From: Bacteroidaceae bacterium | GTDB taxonomy: Bacteria > Bacteroidota > Bacteroidia > Bacteroidales > Bacteroidaceae | Direction of reading: 5' to 3' | Assembly (NCBI GenBank): GCA_017642425.1 | Contig: JAGCPB010000047.1 | Span: forward strand, 1 to 59,177 | Length of the DNA: 59,177 nucleotides | Shown: positions 49,144-59,177 of the stretch, piece after piece | Layout: every line of letters starts with the position of its first letter | How positions within the stretch are numbered: position 1 is the stretch's first letter | Position numbers and translations under genes: made by a program | Notes under the pieces: generated by a model | What the model saw: the letters and a program-made list of their open reading frames with translations, nothing else | The model's database searches: none | What the model was told of the DNA's origin: nothing

Positions 49144-50127
49144 ATGAAATACTACATCCTATTTGGCCCTCCCGGAGCAGGAAAAGGCACACAGGCCGGT
49201 GCCATCTCACAGAAATATAACCTTAAGCACATTAGCACAGGCGAGATGCTGCGCGCCGAGATTGCGGCAGGCACAGAGCTTGGCCGTCAGGCAAAAGAGC
49301 TGATTGACTCCGGCAATCTGGTACCTGACAGTGTGGTTGAAGGCATGATAGAGAGCACATTCAACAGCAACAGGAACGTGGCAGGTTTCCTTCTGGACGG
49401 ATTCCCCCGTACACTGGGTCAGGCCGCAGACCTGGATGAGATGCTGGCCCGCCGCGGTGAGAAGGTAAACGCCGTCATCTCAATCATGATCAAGGATGAA
49501 ACCATAAAGGAGCGTCTGCAGCACCGCGCCCAGATAGAGGGCCGTGCCGATGATGCAAATGAGGAAACCATAAACAACCGCATAGCAACATACCATAAGC
49601 AGACAGAGCCCCTCATCACCTACTACAAGAATGCCGGCAAATACCACGAAGTGGATGGTGAGTGCGGAGATATAGAGGCCGTTCGCAAGGCTATGTTCCG
49701 CGTTTTCAAGGGAATAGACCACAAGTTCCTGGAGCGCCAGGTAGTACTTGATGACTCACTGCTCAACAAGATTCAGATGCTTGCACAGGAGTCACCGCGC
49801 CTGCGTATGAACTATGACCTGCGCAACACAGAGGATGACCAGTCACAGCGTCTGCTCAACGTCATGCTGCCCGGCACCCACACAACAATCCACAAGCACA
49901 ACCTGTCCAGTGAGACCGTGATGCTTATGCGCGGCCGCATGGATACCGTATTCTATAATAATAAGGGAGTAGAGATGCAGCGCATCCACATGGGTGGCGA
50001 TACCGGCGTATTCGGCGTCAACATCCCCAAAGGCCAGTGGCACACTTTCGAGGTTTTTGAACTGAGCATTATCTTCATGGCGCAGGACGGACCTTGGAGC
50101 CCTTTGGCAAAAGAGAACATGCTATAA
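49144..50127 (+). CDS. adk: Adenylate kinase fused to a WbuC-like cupin
   Basis: The 327-aa protein from the ATG at 49144. Residues ~1-190 are a complete short-type adenylate kinase: P-loop LFGPPGAGKGTQAG, STGEMLRAEI, LDGFPRTLGQA and the LID region RAQIEGRADD. Residues ~195-327 form a second domain: SPRLRMNYDLRN, then the cupin signature THTTIHKHNLSSETVMLMRG and FGVNIPKGQWHTFEVFE. This is the layout of WbuC-family cupin metalloproteins, usually separate proteins in LPS/O-antigen loci. The kinase balances AMP, ADP and ATP; what the cupin adds is unknown. The two domains are in one frame with no stop codon. GDP-mannose genes lie convergent, just downstream. Confidence 0.9.
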   Translation: MKYYILFGPPGAGKGTQAGAISQKYNLKHISTGEMLRAEIAAGTELGRQAKELIDSGNLVPDSVVEGMIESTFNSNRNVAGFLLDGFPRTLGQAADLDEMLARRGEKVNAVISIMIKDETIKERLQHRAQIEGRADDANEETINNRIATYHKQTEPLITYYKNAGKYHEVDGECGDIEAVRKAMFRVFKGIDHKFLERQVVLDDSLLNKIQMLAQESPRLRMNYDLRNTEDDQSQRLLNVMLPGTHTTIHKHNLSSETVMLMRGRMDTVFYNNKGVEMQRIHMGGDTGVFGVNIPKGQWHTFEVFELSIIFMAQDGPWSPLAKENML

Positions 50128-50160
50128 AAAATGAAATCGCCGGTTGGCGATTTCTTTTTT
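50125..50160. terminator. Bidirectional terminator
   Basis: GAAATCGCC-GGTT-GGCGATTTC (50133-50154) is flanked by A-rich and T6 tracts between the convergent kinase and mannose-1-phosphate guanylyltransferase genes. Confidence 0.9.
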
Positions 50161-50164
50161 ATCC

Positions 50165-51190
50165 TTAGCTTGCTCCAAACTCCTTAATCCGCTGCTCCTC
50201 GCTCCGTTTGCATATAAGAATCTGTCCGCCCTTCTCGGACACAATGTATCCGTCCAGTCCCTGGATTACAACCTTCTTGGCATCCTCTGCATGCACCACG
50301 CAGTTGGAACTCTCATAAAAGCGGACATTCCCTACCGCACCGTTGTTTTCTGCATCTTTATGCAGTTTCTCATGTAATGACTGCCAGTTGCCCAGGTCAC
50401 TCCAGCCAAAATCAGCCGGATATGTGAACACCTTCCCGTCTGCAGCGGCCGGTTCCATAACAGCATAGTCAACAGAGATCTTCTCACACTGCGGGAATAT
50501 CTCATTCACCTGCCCAGTCACCACCATCTTGTCAATGTCTGAAGCCAGCTGTGGCTTATACTTGGTAAGGCTTGCTGTTATAGTCTTTACATTCCATACA
50601 AATATACCTGCATTCCAGAGATAATTCCCATCTGCCAGATACTTCTTGGCAGTCTCCAGATCCGGTTTCTCCTTGAACGCCTCCACAGCCTTAATCTCAC
50701 AGTCAGCTGCCATAGCTTTCACATATCCGTAACCGACCTCAGGACGATTGGGCTTTATGCCGATAGTAACAATGTAATCATGCCCAGCGGTAAACTCCAA
50801 AGCACCCTTTATAACTCTCTGGAACTCAATGGTATCCATCACAACCGCATCTGCCGGAGTCACCACCACGTTCGCATCCGGGTCTTCATTCAATATGCTA
50901 CGGCACGCCCACGCAATGCAAGGCGCAGTGTTTCGTGCGGCAGGCTCAGCCAGAATATGATTTGACGGTATCCCGGGAATCTGCTCCTTGACTATATCCA
51001 CATAGGCCTTGTTTGTTACCACCCAGAAATTCTCACCTGCACAGATACCCTTGAATCTGTCAACAGTGAGCTGTATAAGCGTTCTGCCACAACCTAAGAT
51101 ATCAATAAACTGCTTAGGAAACTCCGGAGTGCTCAAGGGCCAGAAACGGCTCCCCACTCCTCCTGCCATTATAACAACATGATTTGCCAT
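50165..51190 (-). CDS. manC: Mannose-1-phosphate guanylyltransferase
   Basis: The 341-aa nucleotidyltransferase starts with the signature VIMAGGVGSRFWPLS and FPKQF. It continues with VVTPADAVVMD and NAGIFVWNVKTI, and lacks the C-terminal isomerase domain of bifunctional ManC/AlgA enzymes. It makes GDP-mannose from mannose-1-phosphate and GTP for capsule, O-antigen or protein glycosylation. It begins 20 bp after the phosphomannose isomerase gene in the same direction, so both steps are co-transcribed. Confidence 0.95.
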   Translation of the reverse strand: MANHVVIMAGGVGSRFWPLSTPEFPKQFIDILGCGRTLIQLTVDRFKGICAGENFWVVTNKAYVDIVKEQIPGIPSNHILAEPAARNTAPCIAWACRSILNEDPDANVVVTPADAVVMDTIEFQRVIKGALEFTAGHDYIVTIGIKPNRPEVGYGYVKAMAADCEIKAVEAFKEKPDLETAKKYLADGNYLWNAGIFVWNVKTITASLTKYKPQLASDIDKMVVTGQVNEIFPQCEKISVDYAVMEPAAADGKVFTYPADFGWSDLGNWQSLHEKLHKDAENNGAVGNVRFYESSNCVVHAEDAKKVVIQGLDGYIVSEKGGQILICKRSEEQRIKEFGAS

Positions 51191-51210
51191 CTATTATCAA
51201 TTATTTGTTT

Positions 51211-52257
51211 TCAATATCTGTTCCTATGAAACCAACGGTGTACGGTACTTATAATCCCGCCGCCCTGATTGTCAATAAAAGCATCCAGCACCTTGCTGCT
51301 CTCTCCCAACGGCCTGATATAATAATCCGCCACAGCAGCAGGAATCAGGCAACTGTATCCCTCTCGCAATGTCACCTCATCACCGGTTTCACGTACACGT
51401 ATCACGCAATCCCCTTTCAGGCACATCGTGATGATAAAACTGTCATACTTTACAAGATTCCTATGGAACTCACGCCCTATCTCGGTGACACGGGCGCTGA
51501 AAAACCTTGATTCCATAATCAGGTTGGCCCTGTCATTGCGCACGGCATAATCAGTCCTGTACTTGCGCTCAACCTTGTAATTCAGGGCCTTGGCGGCCAG
51601 AGCGGTATGCAGTTCACGCGGTTTTCCGTCCAGTCCGGGACGGTTATAATCAAATATCCTATAAGTTACGTCACTTGACTGCTGAATCTCGGCCAGCATA
51701 ATTCCGCCGCAGATAGCATGAACACGCCCGGCAGGAATGTAGAACACATCACCCGCATGAGCCTCGTGTCTGGCAAGGGCATCAACCACAGTGCCGTCCT
51801 GCACCATCTGCTTGTACTCATCGGGGGTAAGAGACTTCTTAAAGCCGGAGTAGATGCACGCACCGGGCTCAGCATCAAGCACATACCACATCTCGCTCTT
51901 GCCCAGCTTGCCGTGCTCACGCTGCGCCATCTCATCATCAGGATGGACCTGTATCGACAGGTCATTGCGGGCATCTATAAACTTGACCAGCAGAGGCATA
52001 TGCCCGCCATTCTTACGCGCCACAACCTTGCCCAGAATCCCCTCGGGGTCAGACTCCACCACCTCAGGTAAGGTACGCCCTGCAAATATACCGTTAGCCA
52101 CCACACTGGCCGAACTCTCCACAGCACTTACCTCCCAGCTTTCGCCAATATGATCCTGCTGCGGCAGCCCTTTCCAACGGGTCAGTCTGTCACCACCCCA
52201 CACAATCCGGTGCAGATTGGGCTCAAACAATAGCGGATATAATTGCACTCCATCCAT
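51211..52257 (-). CDS. manA: Mannose-6-phosphate isomerase, class I
   Basis: The 348-aa zinc isomerase has the cupin-like motifs LPLLVKFIDARNDLSIQVHPDD, where metal ligands lie, KSEMWYVLDAEPGA and VFYIPAGRVHAICGG. The N-terminus LFEPNLHRIVWGG is typical of the Bacteroidetes/Firmicutes type I group. It interconverts fructose-6-phosphate and mannose-6-phosphate, feeding the GDP-mannose enzyme encoded 20 bp downstream. A -7 box overlaps the terminator region upstream. Confidence 0.94.
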   Translation of the reverse strand: MDGVQLYPLLFEPNLHRIVWGGDRLTRWKGLPQQDHIGESWEVSAVESSASVVANGIFAGRTLPEVVESDPEGILGKVVARKNGGHMPLLVKFIDARNDLSIQVHPDDEMAQREHGKLGKSEMWYVLDAEPGACIYSGFKKSLTPDEYKQMVQDGTVVDALARHEAHAGDVFYIPAGRVHAICGGIMLAEIQQSSDVTYRIFDYNRPGLDGKPRELHTALAAKALNYKVERKYRTDYAVRNDRANLIMESRFFSARVTEIGREFHRNLVKYDSFIITMCLKGDCVIRVRETGDEVTLREGYSCLIPAAVADYYIRPLGESSKVLDAFIDNQGGGIISTVHRWFHRNRY

Positions 52258-52265
52258 ACCAATCG

Positions 52266-52273
52266 CGAAATTA
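52266..52273 (-). promoter_or_regulatory. -7 box for manA-manC
   Basis: Minus-strand TAATTTCG lies 9 bp before the start codon, just after the terminator of the export genes, so the leader would be very short. Confidence 0.4.
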
Positions 52274-52274
52274 C

Positions 52275-52310
52275 AAAAAACCCGATAATCGTCATCAGAT
52301 TATCGGGCCT
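52275..52310 (-). terminator. Terminator of the export/kinase genes
   Basis: On the minus strand CCCGATAATC and its complement form a 10-bp stem followed by T6, 20 bp after the PHP phosphatase gene. Confidence 0.88.
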
Positions 52311-52330
52311 TTGTTATACACATCTCCGTA

Positions 52331-53020
52331 TTACTTTGGAAGCATGTTGAAAATCCTGCGTGGAACCTTCTGGGTAGTCAGTTTGTCCAGCTGGGTTACG
52401 GTGTGAAGGTCTGTAGCCATGAAATCGTACATACCTTTTGACAGCAGATAGTCTATGATTGTTATGCTTTCGCCACCATAGATTCCTGTCAATGACAGAC
52501 GGTTCATCTGGAAACGGCAACCCATATCCCGCAGATGGTCAAAATCCCTAAGACTCTCTGCCATATACAGATAGCGTTCCGGATGCGCCAGAATAGGCTT
52601 GTACCCTTCAGTAACAAGTGCAAACACCGTATCTTCCAGGTTGTCGCTCCTAAAATAATATGACATCTCAATCAGAATTGAACCATCAGGGAAAGTCAGC
52701 AGCTCACCGCTGGCGGCCCTGTCCTGGAAATTGTTTACCACCATGTACTCGGCAGCCAGCCAGGTCTTTACGCCCAATTCAGACGGAATCCTGGGAATGA
52801 ATGAATCGTAAACCTCTTTCAGTTTGGCCTCAGTCATATCAGGATATACATCGGGATTCATATGAGGTGTCATATAGATCTCCTTACACCCCTCCTGAGC
52901 CATCCTTTTAATGGCTTCAAGAGAATCTTCTGCATGTCTGAATCCGTCATCTACACCGGGAAGCAGGTGATTATGTATATCACGTGTCCCTATACCTACA
53001 ATTTTATTAAAACTAAACAC
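52331..53020 (-). CDS. CpsB/YwqE-type PHP-domain tyrosine phosphatase
   Basis: The 229-aa protein starts at a GTG (53020) supported by an AAAGGA ribosome site directly before it. PHP metal-site motifs are TRDIHNHLLPGVDDG, YMTPHMNPDVYPD, ILAHPERYLYM and FMATDLHTV. Such phosphatases dephosphorylate the Tyr-rich tail of the BY-kinase and so control capsule or EPS chain length. The kinase gene lies 29 bp upstream, in one transcript with the Wza-like exporter. Confidence 0.93.
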   Translation of the reverse strand: MFSFNKIVGIGTRDIHNHLLPGVDDGFRHAEDSLEAIKRMAQEGCKEIYMTPHMNPDVYPDMTEAKLKEVYDSFIPRIPSELGVKTWLAAEYMVVNNFQDRAASGELLTFPDGSILIEMSYYFRSDNLEDTVFALVTEGYKPILAHPERYLYMAESLRDFDHLRDMGCRFQMNRLSLTGIYGGESITIIDYLLSKGMYDFMATDLHTVTQLDKLTTQKVPRRIFNMLPK

Positions 53021-53049
53021 GTCCTTTGATTTGTTTTTTCAGGCAGTCC

Positions 53050-55620
53050 TTATTTGTTGTCATCTTCCTTGATTTTGGACTTCCTCTTGTTCCTTTTAAG
53101 CAATGTTGATAGATTTACTCCCTTCTTGGCATGTTCTGCCTCGTTACCATAGCCGTAACCATATCCGTAGCCATAACCGTAGCCATAGCCATAGCCGCGT
53201 CCGTAACCGTAACCCTTACCATAGCCGTAGCCATAGCCTGCACCATAACCGTAGCGGTACTTATTGGCAGCCAGGTCAAGACCGTTCAGGACAATGTTCA
53301 CGTTCTTCATAGGTTTGCTCTTGGACTTGATGGCTTCATCAATCTCATTAAGCATCTTGAGTTCGGTGACATCGGCCCTGATGGTATAAAGTGTTGCATC
53401 CACGAATGTATTTATAAGGAATGAGTCCGATACCGGCAGATACGGGGCACTGTCAATAACCACATAATCGTACTTGTCACGCAGATACTTGATCAGGTCC
53501 TCATGCTTGTTCTGTGCAAAAAGCTCAGTTGGGTTGGGCGGCACAGGTCCTGCTAACATGATATCCAGAGTATCACTGATGTCGCTCTTAACTATGGCGT
53601 CATCTATGTTCTGGAGTTTTCCAATCAGATAACCCACCACACTGTTCATCTTGTCAACCCTAAGGTTGGGGAATATCTTTTGCAGTGCAGGCTTTCTAAG
53701 GTCCATACCAACAAGGATTACCTTCTTGCCCACATGTGATATTGACAGAGCCAGGTTACTGGCCACGTAACTCTTACCCTCACCCGGAGTGGAGCTTGTA
53801 ACCTGCAGAACCTTCACGCCAGGCAGATACTGAATGTTTGATCTGAGCATACGGAATGATTCCGATGTCGTATCACGTCCGTTCTTGGGTATGAGAGCAT
53901 AGTTGGTATTGTCGTTCTTGGGCAGACATGCCAGAACAGAGGCGTCAATGTGGTCTTCGACATCCTTCTTGGTCTCAACCTTGTGTTTCATAGCGCCTCT
54001 AAGCATCACTATTCCGGGAGGTATGCAGCATCCCAGAACAAATGCCAGCAGCATTATCATCTTCTTGTTGGGAGATATCGGATAAATGCTCTCGCCAAAT
54101 GAAGCCTCAATAACCCTGAAGTTGTCAACCTCACTGTACATGCTAATCTGGGCCTCCTCACGTTTCTGCTGCAAAAGCTGGAACAGCGGCTCAATGATCT
54201 CCATCTTACGTGACAGCTGCTGTAGTTCAAACTGCTGCTCAGGTATTGAAGCCATCTTCTGCTGACTGCTGCCAAGCACCTTCTCAAGTTCTTTCTCACG
54301 TATGCCATACACCTTGACCAGGTTGGCAATAGAAAGTTCTATGGATTTCTTGCCGTCCTCCAACTGCTGGTTCATGTTGAGCACACGGGGGTTGGTTTCA
54401 CTGGAGTTGGCAATCATACGGTTACGTTCGGCCACCAATGTATTGTAGTTGCCTATAATCGTATTGAGTCCGGCATCACTTATGCCCACATTTGCAGGTA
54501 TCACATTATACTCACCCTGTGCTGTCTCGGCCAGATAACCGGTAATCATATCCAGAATCTGGAGCTGAAGCTGTACCTCGGTAAGCTGCTTGCGGTAATC
54601 CATGTCGCTGGTCACTGCCAGTTGGGTCTGCGATTCCAGGTTTACGGCAACCTTGGTTGACTGGTAGTTCTTGTAATCGGTCTCGGCTGCACCAAGTTCG
54701 GTCGATATCACAGACAATCGCTGGTCAATGAAATTGATGGTATTCTGGGTTGACAGGTTCTTGTAATCACGGCTCTCCACGTTCACAAACCTTACAAGCG
54801 TGTTCAGGATCTCATCGGCCCTACCCGGTATGTTGTCCTTAAGGGTCAGGACTATCACATCACTCTGATTGGTTGCCTTTCCCTGAACCGTTGCCTCCAT
54901 GCTCTTAAGGATTGCACGGGCTGTGGCGATAGGAGTATTCCATGTAGTCATGAACTTTTCACCATTGTCAATCAGCTGGGCGTTCACCAGGTTCAGCTTT
55001 ATGGAATAACTGCCCAGAGGAATGGAATCGCTGTACATGAATGACTTGGTTTCAACATCCTGCTCCTTACCGTTCACAAGCAGTTCCTTGATATGGAAGG
55101 TATGTCCGTCTATATTCTTGAAGGTAAGGCTCACAGAAGTTGGCTGCATCTCTTTGGGATACAAGGGGTTAGGCTCAACAATAAACTCATACGGAGTGTC
55201 ATCATACATCTCCTGCCGTTTCAAGCTCAACAGGCCGCTTCCTTTCCTGAACCTGTCTGCCACCGGCATTGAGTATTTGTAATAACGGGTATTTACGCCA
55301 AGTTCCTTAACCACCTTGCTCATCAGGGTAGGACTCTTTATTATGAATACCTCGTTGTCTATCTTCTTGGTTGTACCTCTACCGGTAAATTCGGCCAACA
55401 AGTTCAATTCGGCATTGTTTCCGTCATTCTTGTTCATCATAATCCATGAGGTCCTCTCATAGATGGGCGTCTGCATCCTGACATAAATAAATGCTACGCA
55501 AACAGTAACAAAGGCGGACATCGCTATCCACCATTTCAGGCGCCATACAAATTCCAGCAACTCGCGGATATTGACACTCTGTTCCTCCTCAAGCTGGCCG
55601 TTTAACTCCTTATCAACCAT
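53050..55620 (-). CDS. Polysaccharide co-polymerase / BY tyrosine autokinase (Wzc-like)
   Basis: The 856-aa inner-membrane protein has a Wzz domain with a first helix (WWIAMSAFVTVCVAFIYV), a long periplasmic coiled region, a GNVR-like segment and a second helix (MIMLLAFVLGCCIPPGIVML). The cytoplasmic kinase has Walker A STPGEGKSYVASNLA, Walker A' LVGMDLRKPAL and Walker B YDYVVIDSAPYL. The C-terminus (about 795-830) is an extreme (GY)n tract with some fifteen tyrosines, the autophosphorylation cluster, far more regular than in most homologues. With Wza and the PHP phosphatase it makes a complete export-control trio, but no glycosyltransferases are adjacent. Confidence 0.95.
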   Translation of the reverse strand: MVDKELNGQLEEEQSVNIRELLEFVWRLKWWIAMSAFVTVCVAFIYVRMQTPIYERTSWIMMNKNDGNNAELNLLAEFTGRGTTKKIDNEVFIIKSPTLMSKVVKELGVNTRYYKYSMPVADRFRKGSGLLSLKRQEMYDDTPYEFIVEPNPLYPKEMQPTSVSLTFKNIDGHTFHIKELLVNGKEQDVETKSFMYSDSIPLGSYSIKLNLVNAQLIDNGEKFMTTWNTPIATARAILKSMEATVQGKATNQSDVIVLTLKDNIPGRADEILNTLVRFVNVESRDYKNLSTQNTINFIDQRLSVISTELGAAETDYKNYQSTKVAVNLESQTQLAVTSDMDYRKQLTEVQLQLQILDMITGYLAETAQGEYNVIPANVGISDAGLNTIIGNYNTLVAERNRMIANSSETNPRVLNMNQQLEDGKKSIELSIANLVKVYGIREKELEKVLGSSQQKMASIPEQQFELQQLSRKMEIIEPLFQLLQQKREEAQISMYSEVDNFRVIEASFGESIYPISPNKKMIMLLAFVLGCCIPPGIVMLRGAMKHKVETKKDVEDHIDASVLACLPKNDNTNYALIPKNGRDTTSESFRMLRSNIQYLPGVKVLQVTSSTPGEGKSYVASNLALSISHVGKKVILVGMDLRKPALQKIFPNLRVDKMNSVVGYLIGKLQNIDDAIVKSDISDTLDIMLAGPVPPNPTELFAQNKHEDLIKYLRDKYDYVVIDSAPYLPVSDSFLINTFVDATLYTIRADVTELKMLNEIDEAIKSKSKPMKNVNIVLNGLDLAANKYRYGYGAGYGYGYGKGYGYGRGYGYGYGYGYGYGYGYGNEAEHAKKGVNLSTLLKRNKRKSKIKEDDNK

Positions 55621-55633
55621 ATGTGACTAATTA

Positions 55634-56419
55634 TTACTTACCCAAAAAACCTATTATTGCAATCATTGTGGTGATTGATGACAGCACCACGCTCCATATA
55701 CCTGTTGCCGTAGTTGCCGTAGCTACACGCGTAGCACTGGGCGAAACGTACAGCACATCATTCTGCTGAAGATAAAAATACGGAGACTCCAGAATTTCCT
55801 TATCCCTAAGGTCAATCCTGTGATGCTTTATCACGCCGTCCTCTTCACGCAACAGCAGTATGTCATTTCTCAGAGCCGTCAGGTTAAGGTCACCTGCACG
55901 GCCAAGAGCCTGCAGCACATTGAATTTCTCAGAATCAATTGTATATGTGCCAGGACTGCGAACCTCGCCAAGCACCGTAAACTTGTAGTTTCTGAAAGCT
56001 ACGTACACAATGGGATTCTTTACGTCCTTGCCAATCTCCTCGGTCAGATAATTGACCAGTTCATTGCGGGTCATGCCCTCAACGTGGATCTTGCCCAGAA
56101 TCGGGAAATCTATATCGCCGTTGGGGTCTACAAGATAACTCAGCGTGGCCTGCTCGGGATTTGTGCTGGAGCTGATACCTGATGAACTCATCTCACCAAG
56201 AGTCAGGTTATACGGTGCGCACACGGTCTTGTCCGGTCCGCTCACAACAATCGTAAGACGGTCATCTTTCTTGATAACTGCCTCATAATCATTAGCTAAC
56301 GGCTTAAGTTCAGCATCATCTATATTCTGAAAATAGAGAATCTCCTTAGAAGATGTACAGCCCGATAACCCCAATACCAAGCCAGCCATACCCACAATTA
56401 ACAGTTTGCGTAAACCCAT
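55634..56419 (-). CDS. Wza-like polysaccharide export lipoprotein
   Basis: The 261-aa protein has a lipobox signal (GMAGLVLGLSGC), a Poly_export domain (YEAVIKKDDRLTIVVSGPDK) and one SLBB domain (FTVLGEVRSPGTYTIDSEKF). It ends in a hydrophobic helix (WSVVLSSITTMIAIIGFLG) that would cross the outer membrane in the Wza oligomer. Shorter than E. coli Wza, as is usual in Bacteroidetes. It is the first gene of the export trio; the kinase gene begins 13 bp after it. A -7 box lies 32 bp upstream. Confidence 0.93.
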   Translation of the reverse strand: MGLRKLLIVGMAGLVLGLSGCTSSKEILYFQNIDDAELKPLANDYEAVIKKDDRLTIVVSGPDKTVCAPYNLTLGEMSSSGISSSTNPEQATLSYLVDPNGDIDFPILGKIHVEGMTRNELVNYLTEEIGKDVKNPIVYVAFRNYKFTVLGEVRSPGTYTIDSEKFNVLQALGRAGDLNLTALRNDILLLREEDGVIKHHRIDLRDKEILESPYFYLQQNDVLYVSPSATRVATATTATGIWSVVLSSITTMIAIIGFLGK

Positions 56420-56450
56420 TTCTTAAATCATTATTATTTACAATTTCCCG

Positions 56451-56458
56451 CAAAGATA
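56451..56458 (-). promoter_or_regulatory. -7 box for the wza-like gene
   Basis: Minus-strand TATCTTTG lies 32 bp before the start codon and 12 bp from the adjacent repeat. Confidence 0.5.
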
Positions 56459-56469
56459 ATGCTTTTTTT

Positions 56470-56570
56470 AAAGATGACAAAGGGGACGGTTCTGTTTGTC
56501 ATCTTTTCACCCCATCAACCCAATGAGCCAAAATCAAAAGATGACAAACAGAACCGTCCCCTTTGTCACC
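56470..56570. repeat. Paired inverted dispersed repeat, copy 2
   Basis: Two opposed units (AAAGATGACAAAGGGGACGG... and complement) flank a spacer containing CCCATCAACCCAATGAGCC, close to the spacer of copy 3. It lies 3 bp past the serB stop codon. Confidence 0.92.
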
Positions 56571-56573
56571 TAT

Positions 56574-57803
56574 TTAAAGCTTTCCTTGCTCTCCAAGATA
56601 GGAGTCTTTGAAGCCCAGGAAGTAGAGGACGCCATCAAGGCCGATGGTATTGATGCTCTGCTCGGCGTTTGCAACAACACGGGGTTTTGCGTGGAAAGCA
56701 ATACCTAGACCTGCTTCCGATATCATCGGCAGATCATTGGCTCCATCGCCTACAGCAATGGTCTGCGCCAGATTCACCTTCTCAACCTGAGCAATAAGCT
56801 TGAGCAACTCTGCCTTCCGATGTCCGTCCACAATCTCGCCCACGTATCGGCCAGTGAGTTTGCCGTCATCGCCTATCTCTAGCTCATTAGCATAAACATA
56901 ATCAATGCCGTAACGCCTCTGCAAATGCTGACCAAAATAAGTAAATCCACCGGAAAGAATAGCAATCTTATACCCGCAAGTCTTGAGTACTGACATAAGA
57001 CGGTCCACACCCTCGGTCATAGGCAGATGCTCTGCTATATCCTGTAAGACGCTTACATCCAATCCCTTAAGCAATGCAACACGACGGGTAAAACTCTCCT
57101 TAAAATCAATCTCACCTCGCATTGCGCTCTCCGTAATTGCGCGAACCTGCGCCCCAACGCCATTACGCTCTGCCAATTCGTCAATACACTCCGTCTGGAT
57201 GAGCGTAGAATCCATATCAAAACATATCAGACGCCTCATCCGGCGGAACATATCGTCCTTCTGGAAAGAGAAATCAATCTCCATCTCCTGCGACATCCGC
57301 ATCAGTTTGGACTGCATCTCCTTGCGGTCCAAAGGCTCACCGCGCAGCGAGAACTGAATGCAAGCCCGCGTATGCTTGTCCAGCTGCTTTATGCTCTTGC
57401 GCCCCGTAAGACGCAAAATAGAATCAATATTAAGTCCCTGATCAGCAAGAATTTGAGTAGCCGCCTGAATCTGCCGAGCCTCCAGTTGCCGCCCCAGCAC
57501 CGTCAGAATGTACCGGTTCTTGCCCTGATGTCCAACCCAGTCCTCATACTCATCATCGCTAATAGGTGAGAAACCGATGTTCACCCCCAGCTCCGTAGCC
57601 TTAAACAACAGCTCCTTCATAGCCAACCCGGATTTCATCTCATCCATGCGGATTAAAATGCCCAATGACAGCGTGTTATGAATATCGGCCTGACCAATAT
57701 CCAGCACATGCGCATCATATCGCGCCAGAATCCCCATCACCGCCGCCGTCAACCCCGGCCTGTCCTGCCCCGTAATCCTAACCAAAATCTGCTCTTCTTT
57801 CAT
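56574..57803 (-). CDS. serB: Phosphoserine phosphatase with N-terminal ACT domains
   Basis: The start at 57803 gives 409 aa; an in-frame codon further upstream would pass through the promoter box. The first ~180 residues are two ACT-like domains (LVRITGQDRPGLTAAVMG; ILTVLGRQLEARQIQ). The C-terminal HAD phosphatase has CFDMDSTLIQTECIDELAE with nucleophile Asp, ILSGGFTYFG and VGDGANDLPMISEAGLGI. It makes L-serine in the last step of its synthesis; the ACT domains probably sense serine. Its gene is bracketed by two near-identical dispersed repeats (56470-56570 and 57843-57940). Confidence 0.95.
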   Translation of the reverse strand: MKEEQILVRITGQDRPGLTAAVMGILARYDAHVLDIGQADIHNTLSLGILIRMDEMKSGLAMKELLFKATELGVNIGFSPISDDEYEDWVGHQGKNRYILTVLGRQLEARQIQAATQILADQGLNIDSILRLTGRKSIKQLDKHTRACIQFSLRGEPLDRKEMQSKLMRMSQEMEIDFSFQKDDMFRRMRRLICFDMDSTLIQTECIDELAERNGVGAQVRAITESAMRGEIDFKESFTRRVALLKGLDVSVLQDIAEHLPMTEGVDRLMSVLKTCGYKIAILSGGFTYFGQHLQRRYGIDYVYANELEIGDDGKLTGRYVGEIVDGHRKAELLKLIAQVEKVNLAQTIAVGDGANDLPMISEAGLGIAFHAKPRVVANAEQSINTIGLDGVLYFLGFKDSYLGEQGKL

Positions 57804-57824
57804 ACCAAATCTCAACTTCTCCCG

Positions 57825-57832
57825 CAAAGATA
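57825..57832 (-). promoter_or_regulatory. -7 box for serB
   Basis: Minus-strand TATCTTTG lies 22 bp before the start codon at 57803, ten bases from the next repeat. Confidence 0.5.
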
Positions 57833-57842
57833 GAAAAGATGC

Positions 57843-57940
57843 AAAAGGTGACAAAGGGGACGGTTCTGTTTGTCATCTTTTTGCCCCATCAAACCAATGA
57901 GCCAAAATCAAAAGATGACAAACAGAACCGTCCCCTTTGT
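57843..57940. repeat. Paired inverted dispersed repeat, copy 3
   Basis: It has the same opposed units as copies 1 and 2, and a spacer (GCCCCATCAAACCAATGAGCC) nearly identical to copy 2. It ends about 10 bp from the 3' end of the tRNA-Thr gene. Confidence 0.92.
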
Positions 57941-57949
57941 CCATCTTTG

Positions 57950-58022
57950 CGGCCGCGGTTGGATTCGAACCAACGATATCGACATTACAAGTGTTGCCCT
58001 TTAACCACTAAGGTACGCGGCC
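57950..58022 (-). tRNA. tRNA-Thr (anticodon UGU), atypical
   Basis: All tRNA parts can be assigned on the minus strand. Acceptor GGCCGCG/CGCGGCC is a perfect 7 bp. D-stem CCTT/AAGG has conserved loop bases including G18 G19. The anticodon loop CTTGTAA gives UGU with U33. The variable loop is ATATC and the T-arm GTTGG-TTCGAAT-CCAAC. Oddities are an A-C mismatch at 28-42 of the anticodon stem, a G at the discriminator position and no encoded CCA. It is therefore either a secondary, divergent tRNA-Thr or one with a special role. It lies ~30 nt after the far end of the permuted tRNA-like element on the same strand. Confidence 0.8.
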
Positions 58023-58099
58023 TGGACTGGGATTCTTATCCTTCTTCCCGGCCCCAGGTTGGCCGATAGGATTCAGAGTATTTCAAGCTGATGCTGTCA

Positions 58100-58184
58100 G
58101 TCCATAATCTGCCAATTGATCTAACCCGCCATATAATAAATTGATTTAGAGGCGGGTACGGGACTTGAACCCGCAACCTTGGAC
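58100..58184 (-). ncRNA. Circularly permuted tRNA-like element (3' half upstream of 5' half)
   Basis: Read 5' to 3' on the minus strand, a full tRNA 3' half comes first: anticodon-stem strand GTCCA (58184-58180), variable loop AGGTT, T-arm GCGGG-TTCAAGT-CCCGT, acceptor strand ACCCGCC (58157-58151) and base T (58150). After 19 nt the matching 5' half follows: acceptor GGCGGGT (58130-58124), TA, D-stem GATC, loop AATTGGCA with A14, A15, G18, G19, A21, D-stem GATT, A26, and TGGAC (58104-58100). Acceptor (7/7), anticodon stem (5/5) and D-stem (4/4, one G-U) all pair, and A15 fits U48. Flanks can pair as well: TTAAG (58203-58199) with CTTGA (58087-58083), TCAGAG (58210-58205) with CTCTGA (58078-58073), ATAGG (58219-58215) with CCTAT (58070-58066). 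No way of joining the two loop ends yields U33. Maturation and role are unknown. Confidence 0.75.
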
Positions 58185-58329
58185 TCTCTGTCGAAACACT
58201 TAACCTCTGAAGAGCCTATACTTTGAACCATAATGCAGAAGCTTTGGCACAATGCTGATGCTTACGCGCACCCCACCGGGATGATGATAAAGCTGAGTCA
58301 TAATGCTAACGCTGAACTGCCAATCAGAA

Positions 58330-59136
58330 TCATTCCGTTCCGTTAAAAATATACCCCAAGAGCTTGTCCGCAGCAAGATTCGGCTCCAAAGTTTGCGTAT
58401 CATTTACCTTCTTAGTAGCCTCTATTACGGCGTTCATCAGTTTACTTATACGCTCTTGAACCAATTGCTTTTGTCTAAGCGTCCACTCTCCCGAGAATTT
58501 CTGCGACGTATATGATCCTCTCTTTATTGTTGTCTTAACTTCCTTTGTAATAGGCCGATAACTGGACGGAAGATGCTCCTTGTCAATATTAGGATCCAGC
58601 AAGATTTCAGTATCAGTAATAGTAGTGAAACTGTCACCTTCCAGCCGCGGTGTCTCAAAAATATCATCCCGACCCTGATAGTCTTCATTCTCACTTGCCT
58701 TCCAAATCTCAGAATCAGACCTTACAGGAATATTAGCAATAAGATTTTTAAGATTCTCATCGGTCAAGATGTTCTTTAGCCTTAACAGTTCCGTAGCCGA
58801 CAGATCTCCAAGATTAAGCCCGTCCACCACAAACGGAACTCTAGCCGAACCTGCAGAATTAGTAGCCTCTATTGCGAACTGATCCTTAAGATAAGGCAGC
58901 AACGACCTGTCCACCAACCTCTTGATTTCTTCTGATACCGTAGTAGCAACTACCGTATGTCCCATCTTAGTAGGATCTTCCAACTGCCCTTCGGCCGCAT
59001 GGAATGTCTTCTTCTCTCCCTTAAAAGAAGAGGTATTCCTCTTAAAAAACTCCCCCTGCTTGCGCAACGATTCCGTATAAACCGCCCGCTCATGCTCGGC
59101 CTTAGCCAGCGTAACATTCATCTTTTCCTGTGTCAT
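58330..59136 (-). CDS. Conserved-looking 268-aa cytoplasmic protein of unknown function next to the permuted tRNA
   Basis: The 268-aa protein has no signal peptide or membrane helix. The N-terminus is charged and helical (LAKAEHERAVYTESLRKQGE). The middle has TTVSEEIKRLVDRSLLPYL, VPFVVDGLNLGDLSATELL and RLKNILTDENLKNLIANIPV. The C-terminus has GEWTLRQKQLVQERISKLMN and ends LLGYIFNGTE. From memory it resembles a widespread group of uncharacterised proteins of about 270 residues, possibly DUF7873, but I cannot confirm that and assign no function. Its own -7 box lies at the window edge, and the permuted tRNA-like element follows ~145 nt after its stop codon, on the same strand, with no terminator that I can see between them. 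Confidence 0.8.
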   Translation of the reverse strand: MTQEKMNVTLAKAEHERAVYTESLRKQGEFFKRNTSSFKGEKKTFHAAEGQLEDPTKMGHTVVATTVSEEIKRLVDRSLLPYLKDQFAIEATNSAGSARVPFVVDGLNLGDLSATELLRLKNILTDENLKNLIANIPVRSDSEIWKASENEDYQGRDDIFETPRLEGDSFTTITDTEILLDPNIDKEHLPSSYRPITKEVKTTIKRGSYTSQKFSGEWTLRQKQLVQERISKLMNAVIEATKKVNDTQTLEPNLAADKLLGYIFNGTE

Positions 59137-59162
59137 AGCGTTCGTTTTGATGTTTCGTGAGG

Positions 59163-59170
59163 CAAAATTA
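59163..59170 (-). promoter_or_regulatory. -7 box for the 268-aa protein gene
   Basis: Minus-strand TAATTTTG lies 27 bp before the start codon, at the window edge. Confidence 0.5.
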
Positions 59171-59177
59171 CGCCCAC

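Follow-up and report, generated by a model that had tools for sequence, protein, structure and literature searches.

A circularly permuted tRNA-like RNA linked to genes of the DUF7873 family in ruminant-gut Bacteroidales and phages

We studied a 59,177-base stretch of DNA from a Bacteroidaceae bacterium (assembly GCA_017642425.1, contig JAGCPB010000047.1, positions 1 to 59,177; henceforth the window), a genome whose relatives are uncultured Bacteroidales of ruminant stomachs. Close to the end of the window, the minus strand carries a gene of the protein family DUF7873 directly upstream of a tRNA-like fold in which the 3' half stands ahead of the 5' half (58184-58100), which we will refer to as the permuted module. 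Modules were scored with a descriptor comprising the T-arm, the acceptor stem and a D-arm with GG (threshold 20.5), and with R1, a covariance model of the permuted module (threshold for linkage 48 bits). The gene and the parts of the module are as follows, with AC3 and AC5 denoting the 3' and 5' strands of the anticodon stem.

58330..59136, minus strand: DUF7873 (PF25283) gene, 268 amino acids, the proposed protein partner (Pfam 97.5 bits, cut-off 27)
58100..58184, minus strand: whole permuted module, i.e., 3' half, 20-nt linker and 5' half (R1 66.5 bits, descriptor, covariation, Levitt pair)
58184-58180, minus strand: AC3, GTCCA (read 5' to 3' off the minus strand)
58179-58175, minus strand: variable region, AGGTT
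58174-58158, minus strand: T-arm, GCGGG-TTCAAGT-CCCGT
58157-58151, minus strand: 3' strand of the acceptor stem, ACCCGCC
58150-58131, minus strand: 20-nt linker closing the acceptor stem, starting TCTA here and mostly NCCA elsewhere
58130-58124, minus strand: 5' strand of the acceptor stem, GGCGGGT
58123-58122, minus strand: TA between the acceptor 5' strand and the D-arm
58121-58106, minus strand: D-arm, GATC-AATTGGCA-GATT, with one G-U pair
58105, minus strand: single A between the D-arm and AC5
58104-58100, minus strand: AC5, TGGAC
58099 with 58185, minus strand: sixth pair of the anticodon stem

In the window the acceptor stem (7/7), T-arm (5/5) and D-arm (4/4) are paired throughout, the anticodon stem has 5-6 bp and an A15-U48 pair is present; the original prediction, made from the sequence alone, had given the same coordinates and pairings, A15-U48 included. 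Run over both strands of the window, the descriptor returned no match on the plus strand and three on the minus strand, among which the module ranked first (24.0) and the other two reached 19.5, while a second descriptor, scored on relatives and not on the window, gave 22-22.5 for the closest relatives. ARAGORN called no ordinary tRNA at the module, and on the correct strand Rfam returned there a sub-threshold match to the Y RNA YrlA alone (27.6 bits, gathering score 69). The permuted tRNA-like fold in the window is confirmed as real.

In alignment A6, which comprises 86 modules (85 out of 89 selected, plus the window), all 16 pairs show double-sided change (shuffled mean 14.0) and double changes number 424, compared with 111 after shuffling; acceptor sequences vary between modules with pairing retained. 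Standard pairs occupy 96.9% of pair cells, compared with 62.9% when shuffled and 36-50% when slid, these percentages being upper values, inflated because the modules of A6 were chosen partly on acceptor pairing. The Levitt pair 15-48, which spans both halves and played no part in choosing modules, is G-C or A-U in 82/86 (shuffle mean 42.8, maximum 62 in 10,000), and U8 and A14 are found in all 86 modules, so that a tRNA core including the contact across the halves is present. The stems, the covarying homologues and the Levitt pair bear out the circularly permuted tRNA architecture that had been proposed, which its author was prepared to abandon if no homologues with covarying stems existed; such homologues do exist. 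It is barely credible that the two halves are unrelated debris of a tRNA array that survived by chance. Several DUF7873 carriers do sit inside phage tRNA arrays, but this explanation is contradicted because the Levitt pair holds in 82 of the 86 modules, and the covariation, the linkage to DUF7873 and the reverse search described below also stand against it. The module is not a chance relic and, as the original prediction argued, not two independently decaying tRNAs, as both the covariation and the Levitt pair attest.

To quantify the association between the module and the gene, we used 142 DUF7873 loci from ruminant-gut Bacteroidales, actinobacteria and phages of many hosts. Searches with tblastn had matched DUF7873 in Lak, Rhizobium, Klebsiella/Serratia, Vibrio, Gordonia, Arthrobacter, Rhodococcus, Pseudanabaena and Microcoleus phages, as well as in four actinobacterial records, every one with two descriptor modules; further loci were added through IMG/VR scans, one viral scan retaining 80 of 137 relatives. 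Excluded from the 142 were same-contig repeats (L050, L059, L083, L093), near-identical or same-contig loci (L021, L027, L032, L033), partial gene matches (L157-L159) and the source genome and its genus (L001-L003, L014-L016), and some near-identical loci remain (e.g., L080/L081, L119-L121, L136/L155). We found an R1 match of at least 48 bits on the same strand and at most 700 nt downstream of DUF7873 in 120 of these loci; in a further 4 the match lies farther downstream, in 1 upstream and in 1 on the opposite strand, and 16 have none. Counted by match, 141 of 152 occupy the same-strand place within 700 nt downstream. The descriptor agrees: among the DUF7873 loci that have 350 nt or more of downstream sequence, 115/140 reach 20.5 in that place, compared with 2/139 upstream, 1/140 on the reverse strand downstream and 0/139 on the reverse strand upstream. 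Shuffled downstream regions reached 20.5 in 0/2800 cases (three reached 20), and in an earlier set, with 40 shuffles of 820 nt for each of 39 loci, the top score was 20.5, in a single locus, L022.

Of 37 genomes of the source genus, R1 gives 66 bits or more in exactly the three that carry DUF7873, and no more than 45.9 in the remaining 34 (with up to 123 candidates per genome scored); R1 also picks up probable tandem ordinary tRNAs, and the linkage threshold was put at 48 bits because these reach 45.9 in the 34 genomes without DUF7873. In a reverse test, two degenerate patterns blind to DUF7873 matched 6 stretches in 2.9 million viral contigs, and DUF7873 stood just upstream on the same strand in 5 of them (the contig of one, L196, was already part of the training set). 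The linkage points to an unstudied RNA-protein partnership.

The conserved block extends well beyond the module, and the original prediction, which is supported in part, missed the DUF7873 gene, the hexamer repeats, a downstream tRNA-like element whose anticodon drifts, and the occurrence of the unit across phages. The remaining features of the block are listed here.

58244..58323, minus strand: 5' domain (hexamer periodicity; conserved in alignment A7)
within 58244..58323, minus strand: candidate outer helix TTGGCA/TGCCAA, seen by eye
58314-58297, minus strand: hexamer tract 1, CAGCGT-TAGCAT-TATGAC
58283-58269, minus strand: apical hairpin of the 5' domain
58264-58250, minus strand: hexamer tract 2
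58198..58229, minus strand: predicted 5' strand of a basal stem (RNAalifold; flank complementarity)
58057..58088, minus strand: predicted 3' strand of the basal stem (RNAalifold)
58024..58054, minus strand: predicted hairpin between the two tRNA-like parts (A7, RNAalifold)
57949..58022, minus strand: tRNA-like element in canonical order, ARAGORN tRNA-Thr(TGT), at the end of the conserved block (stems conserved)

Alignment A7 holds 10 distinct Bacteroidales copies; the 13 rows of alignment A1 amount to 11, since L002/L009 and L003/L004 represent two genomes. Between the DUF7873 stop codon and the module, the sequence of 89 loci has a 6-nt period (lag-6 z 14.9, lag-12 z 6.5, lag-3 z -2.6, lag-9 z 0.2), and the stretch 3' of the module is likewise periodic (lag-6 z 6.6). 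An expectation-maximisation fit of the hexamers gave approximately YARNYU with a total score of 1290, whereas four shuffled sets scored 624-674 (the real set was run with 12 seeds and 25 iterations, the shuffled ones with 5 seeds and 15 iterations). A tract score above 8, an arbitrary cut-off for which real loci alone were counted, was found in 82/89 loci, and the tract of the near relative L004 is weak (8.5). For the 5' domain, RNAalifold gives a pairing other than the one listed.

On either side of the module the flanks tend to pair. In 10 Bacteroidales loci RNAalifold predicted 23 pairs of basal stem beneath the anticodon stem, with compensatory change in 3 (covariation term -3.1 of -105.6), and across 93 loci the flanks pair at -36.9 kcal/mol, compared with -29.8 for mismatched partners and -31.6 for shuffled ones. 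The downstream element keeps its stems among syntenic copies, and its anticodon is TGT, AGT, GCA, AAT or unassigned; decoding by this element is doubtful because the anticodon drifts while the stems persist. At another locus (L101 3272-3342) a canonical-order tRNA match of 38.1 bits separates DUF7873 from the permuted module.

The pairing of the flanks bears directly on what kind of tRNA-like RNA this is. In red algae and Thermofilum, the permuted tRNA genes, as described in PMC3978253, which also covers the processing pathway of the algal ones, similarly put the 3' half first and carry an intervening sequence at the acceptor end; two of the Thermofilum genes encode CCA. The modules differ from them in that no closed anticodon loop is seen as modelled, in being linked to a protein gene and in occurring in bacteria and phages. 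We consider it very improbable that the module is a genuine permuted tRNA gene whose product is circularised and decodes in the red-algal style. The 3'-half-first order and the tRNA core residues would fit such a gene, but the anticodon stem extends into pairing flanks, and bacteria are not known to have the bulge-helix-bulge splicing route of permuted tRNAs. The earlier suggestion of an ordinary tRNA in need of circularisation is not supported, as the anticodon stem runs into flanks that tend to pair as a basal stem and the topology is already known from YrlA. For the same reasons, i.e., the continuing anticodon stem and the match in topology with this Y RNA, the module is probably no decoding tRNA.

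The acceptor end invites a second comparison. A CCA following one nucleotide after the acceptor 3' strand (linker positions 2-4) occurs in 79/112 unique modules, and CCA at offsets 0, 2 and 3 in 0/112. At loci with at least two ordinary tRNAs, the module encodes CCA in 28/31 cases where at least half of those tRNAs do so and in 8/14 otherwise (p 0.017, near-identical loci retained). One explanation would be a two-piece tRNA-like or tmRNA-like molecule, from which RNase P and 3' trimming excise the linker to leave two base-paired RNAs with a charged CCA end. The discriminator and CCA in the expected place, the tendency of the module to follow its neighbouring tRNAs and the full L-shape agree with this. 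However, acceptor sequences and discriminators vary widely, the G3-U70 pair that marks the alanine identity of tmRNA is found in 4/112 modules only, a closed anticodon loop is absent from the 86 modules as modelled, and no tag reading frame was noticed, none having been sought; we regard this explanation as quite unlikely. The comparison that the original prediction drew with permuted two-piece tmRNA (RF04321) is nevertheless apt in topology, since the 3' tRNA-like part of that RNA comes before its 5' part (PMC10085705), and a processed linker is plausible in the module as well, which differs in having a full D-arm and T-arm. In Rfam searches no tmRNA model matched the module, either in the window or in 20 loci, and we rejected tmRNA as an assignment. 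Separately, tmRNA genes lie near DUF7873 on some phage contigs (L145 5043-5340, L040 1072-1600, L029 5523-5870), one of which fits the permuted kind RF04321.

The same architecture is known from YrlA. By its Rfam structure line, YrlA (RF02553) has the same order of T-arm, loop-closed acceptor stem and D-arm within further stems, and a basal stem, predicted for the DUF7873-linked RNA, may be a further likeness. Nearest as precedents for a role as a tether of RNA enzymes (as in Ro-Y RNA-PNPase) or as a decoy are a review covering YrlA (PMC8394870) and a proposed inhibition of an anticodon nuclease by YrlA (PMC7790460); a jumbo-phage survey reports TROVE proteins with a tRNA-like partner (PMC7824862). 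The DUF7873-linked RNA differs in that DUF7873 adjoins the module, in its hexamer repeats (looked at on the DUF7873 side) and in a linker that mostly carries NCCA, one Ro-side module also having TCCA by eye. The locus might encode a plain bacterial Y RNA of the YrlA class with Ro as its protein and DUF7873 as an accessory neighbour. This would account for the shared permuted topology, the predicted basal stem, and the Rhizobium phage RHph_TM21B, in which two sub-threshold YrlA matches (L020 9694-9947; R1 65.4 and 42.3 bits), including the one with TCCA after the acceptor strand, lie beside a TROVE gene; moreover, Deinobacterium chartae is the sole carrier of DUF7873 and the sole carrier of TROVE among 14 control genomes. 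However, Ro is absent in 22/23 carriers tested, whose assemblies are incomplete, and no Ro/TROVE was found in the source genome, which is 87% complete; no YrlA above the gathering score was found in the 20 DUF7873 loci searched with Rfam. We rejected full YrlA membership on the Rfam score in the window and on the absence of Ro, and consider a plain Y RNA unlikely.

We favour, with moderate confidence, a mostly Ro-independent, Y-RNA-like tRNA mimic that acts with DUF7873. Under this proposal, the locus would produce a structured non-coding RNA of about 300-380 nt from the same strand as, and downstream of, the DUF7873 gene. The hexamer repeats in its 5' part (approximately YARNYU) are proposed sites for several DUF7873 protomers, a binding that we infer from the linkage together with the periodicity. 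In the centre, a tRNA L-shape made of the permuted halves would be set on the basal stem through its anticodon stem, as in YrlA, so that DUF7873 and the RNA would form a ribonucleoprotein displaying a tRNA mimic without an anticodon loop. Its acceptor end, often encoding CCA, is predicted to draw RNase P, the CCA-adding enzyme, modification enzymes and possibly PNPase; alternatively, in conflicts between phage and host, the RNA may serve as a decoy for factors that attack tRNAs. A tentative extension, which we hold to be improbable on balance, is a new class of ribonucleoprotein. In it, DUF7873 would oligomerise along the hexamer repeats and display a single permuted tRNA module or a pair of them. 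Cleavage of the acceptor linker by RNase P would then give tRNA-like RNAs in several pieces, with genuine and possibly charged CCA ends, by means of which infecting phages would protect or manage the tRNA pool.

Several observations weigh against the favoured explanation, in addition to the partial selection of A6 on acceptor pairing, the co-occurrence in Deinobacterium chartae and the incompleteness of the source genome. Both thresholds (20.5 and 48 bits) were fixed after the first results, and R1 was trained on many loci that it later scored. The 16 of 142 loci without an R1 match of at least 48 bits in the analysed stretch include contig ends or truncated loci (L070, L103, L013) and Lak phages, the rest being unexplained; in Lak-B5 the best R1 match anywhere is 42.8. 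The sixth match of the reverse test (L198/L199) scores 53.4 bits in R1, and the viral record of 213 kb on which it lies lacks DUF7873; a module can thus be present where this gene is missing, though the record may be a fragment. The linker lacks CCA in 9/10 Bacteroidales copies of A7. Upstream of the DUF7873 gene there is also a lag-6 signal (z 6.8), alongside the kind of lag-3 signal (z 8.5) that coding DNA shows. Finally, the longest flank helix averages 6.8 bp, compared with 6.2-6.4 bp in controls, and the minimum free energy of the window RNA is ordinary compared with shuffles (z -0.72).

The sixth match (L199 ~1501-1573, contig G727, IMGVR_UViG_3300028840_006257) has no descriptor anticodon stem and no ARAGORN tRNA call; by eye, the anticodon arm in its 5' half is closed, and pairing would be possible between the outer flanks, AACCTTG and CAAGGTT. 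It is perhaps a permuted tRNA of another kind. The Lak-C1 and Lak-A1 phages carry a module (51.6 and 51.4 bits) far from DUF7873, a distance checked for Lak-C1, meaning that the module need not be a 3' untranslated region; the Lak-C1 module (L192 1695-1786, minus strand) has flanks that look by eye like those of the Bacteroidales RNA. In L132, a relative of the Lak DUF7873, the module lies downstream of the gene.

The distribution of the unit is patchy. DUF7873 was present in 3/37 genomes of the source genus and, in samples of 295 genomes from the order and 395 from the phylum, in the source genome only. The block that runs from the DUF7873 gene through the downstream tRNA-like element (to ~57946) is common to ten genome contigs. 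In L013 it is in two pieces, this copy having decayed with loss of the permuted module and a large part of the DUF7873 gene. BLAST homology to 10 other loci stops no more than about 20 nt from where the downstream element ends, and past ~57946 it resumes, within window positions 50000-59177, in L009 only. On the other side the window, and with it the comparison, ends 41 bases beyond the DUF7873 gene; the open reading frames neighbouring DUF7873 are, by eye, partly different between loci. The DUF7873-RNA unit is sporadic and may be a small mobile cassette.

As for the protein, the window DUF7873 had no matches in NCBIfam, PADLOC or PHROGs, and we rejected a known defence protein or phage family on this ground; four phage homologues searched against PHROGs gave weak matches to families of unknown function or none. 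No related solved structure was found. A divergent TROVE/Ro protein was rejected (hhalign probability 0.1% against one phage Ro sequence), as was YicC-like_C, to which one DUF7873 protein has a weak match (E 0.0009, below the cut-off) and which is not among the 25 families listed for the 60-member alignment A5, an alignment that omits that protein. DUF7873 is not mentioned in the literature searched, nor is the module-DUF7873 unit described there, including the accessible parts of PMC7824862, PMC7790460, PMC8394870, PMC10085705, PMC3978253, PMC7765460 and PMC9569102. Our results connect this uncharacterised family with one particular structured RNA in phages unrelated to each other, and suggest that permuted tRNA mimics are in use outside Ro particles. 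With one gene and one RNA, the unit is a compact system for testing phage tRNA mimicry.

The unit shares with GOLLD RNA a location in tRNA arrays, and differs in that no GOLLD match above the gathering score was found in the 20 loci searched. The module may account for odd phage tRNA calls: in Klebsiella phage FBKp24 an annotated tRNA-Sup-TTA (L022 5934-6013) shares positions with a permuted module and was probably called in error. Lastly, the window carries two 98-nt copies, 96% identical, of an element resembling a miniature inverted-repeat transposable element, with inverted arms of about 41-43 nt (56470-56567 and 57844-57941), one of which abuts the end of the downstream tRNA-like element.
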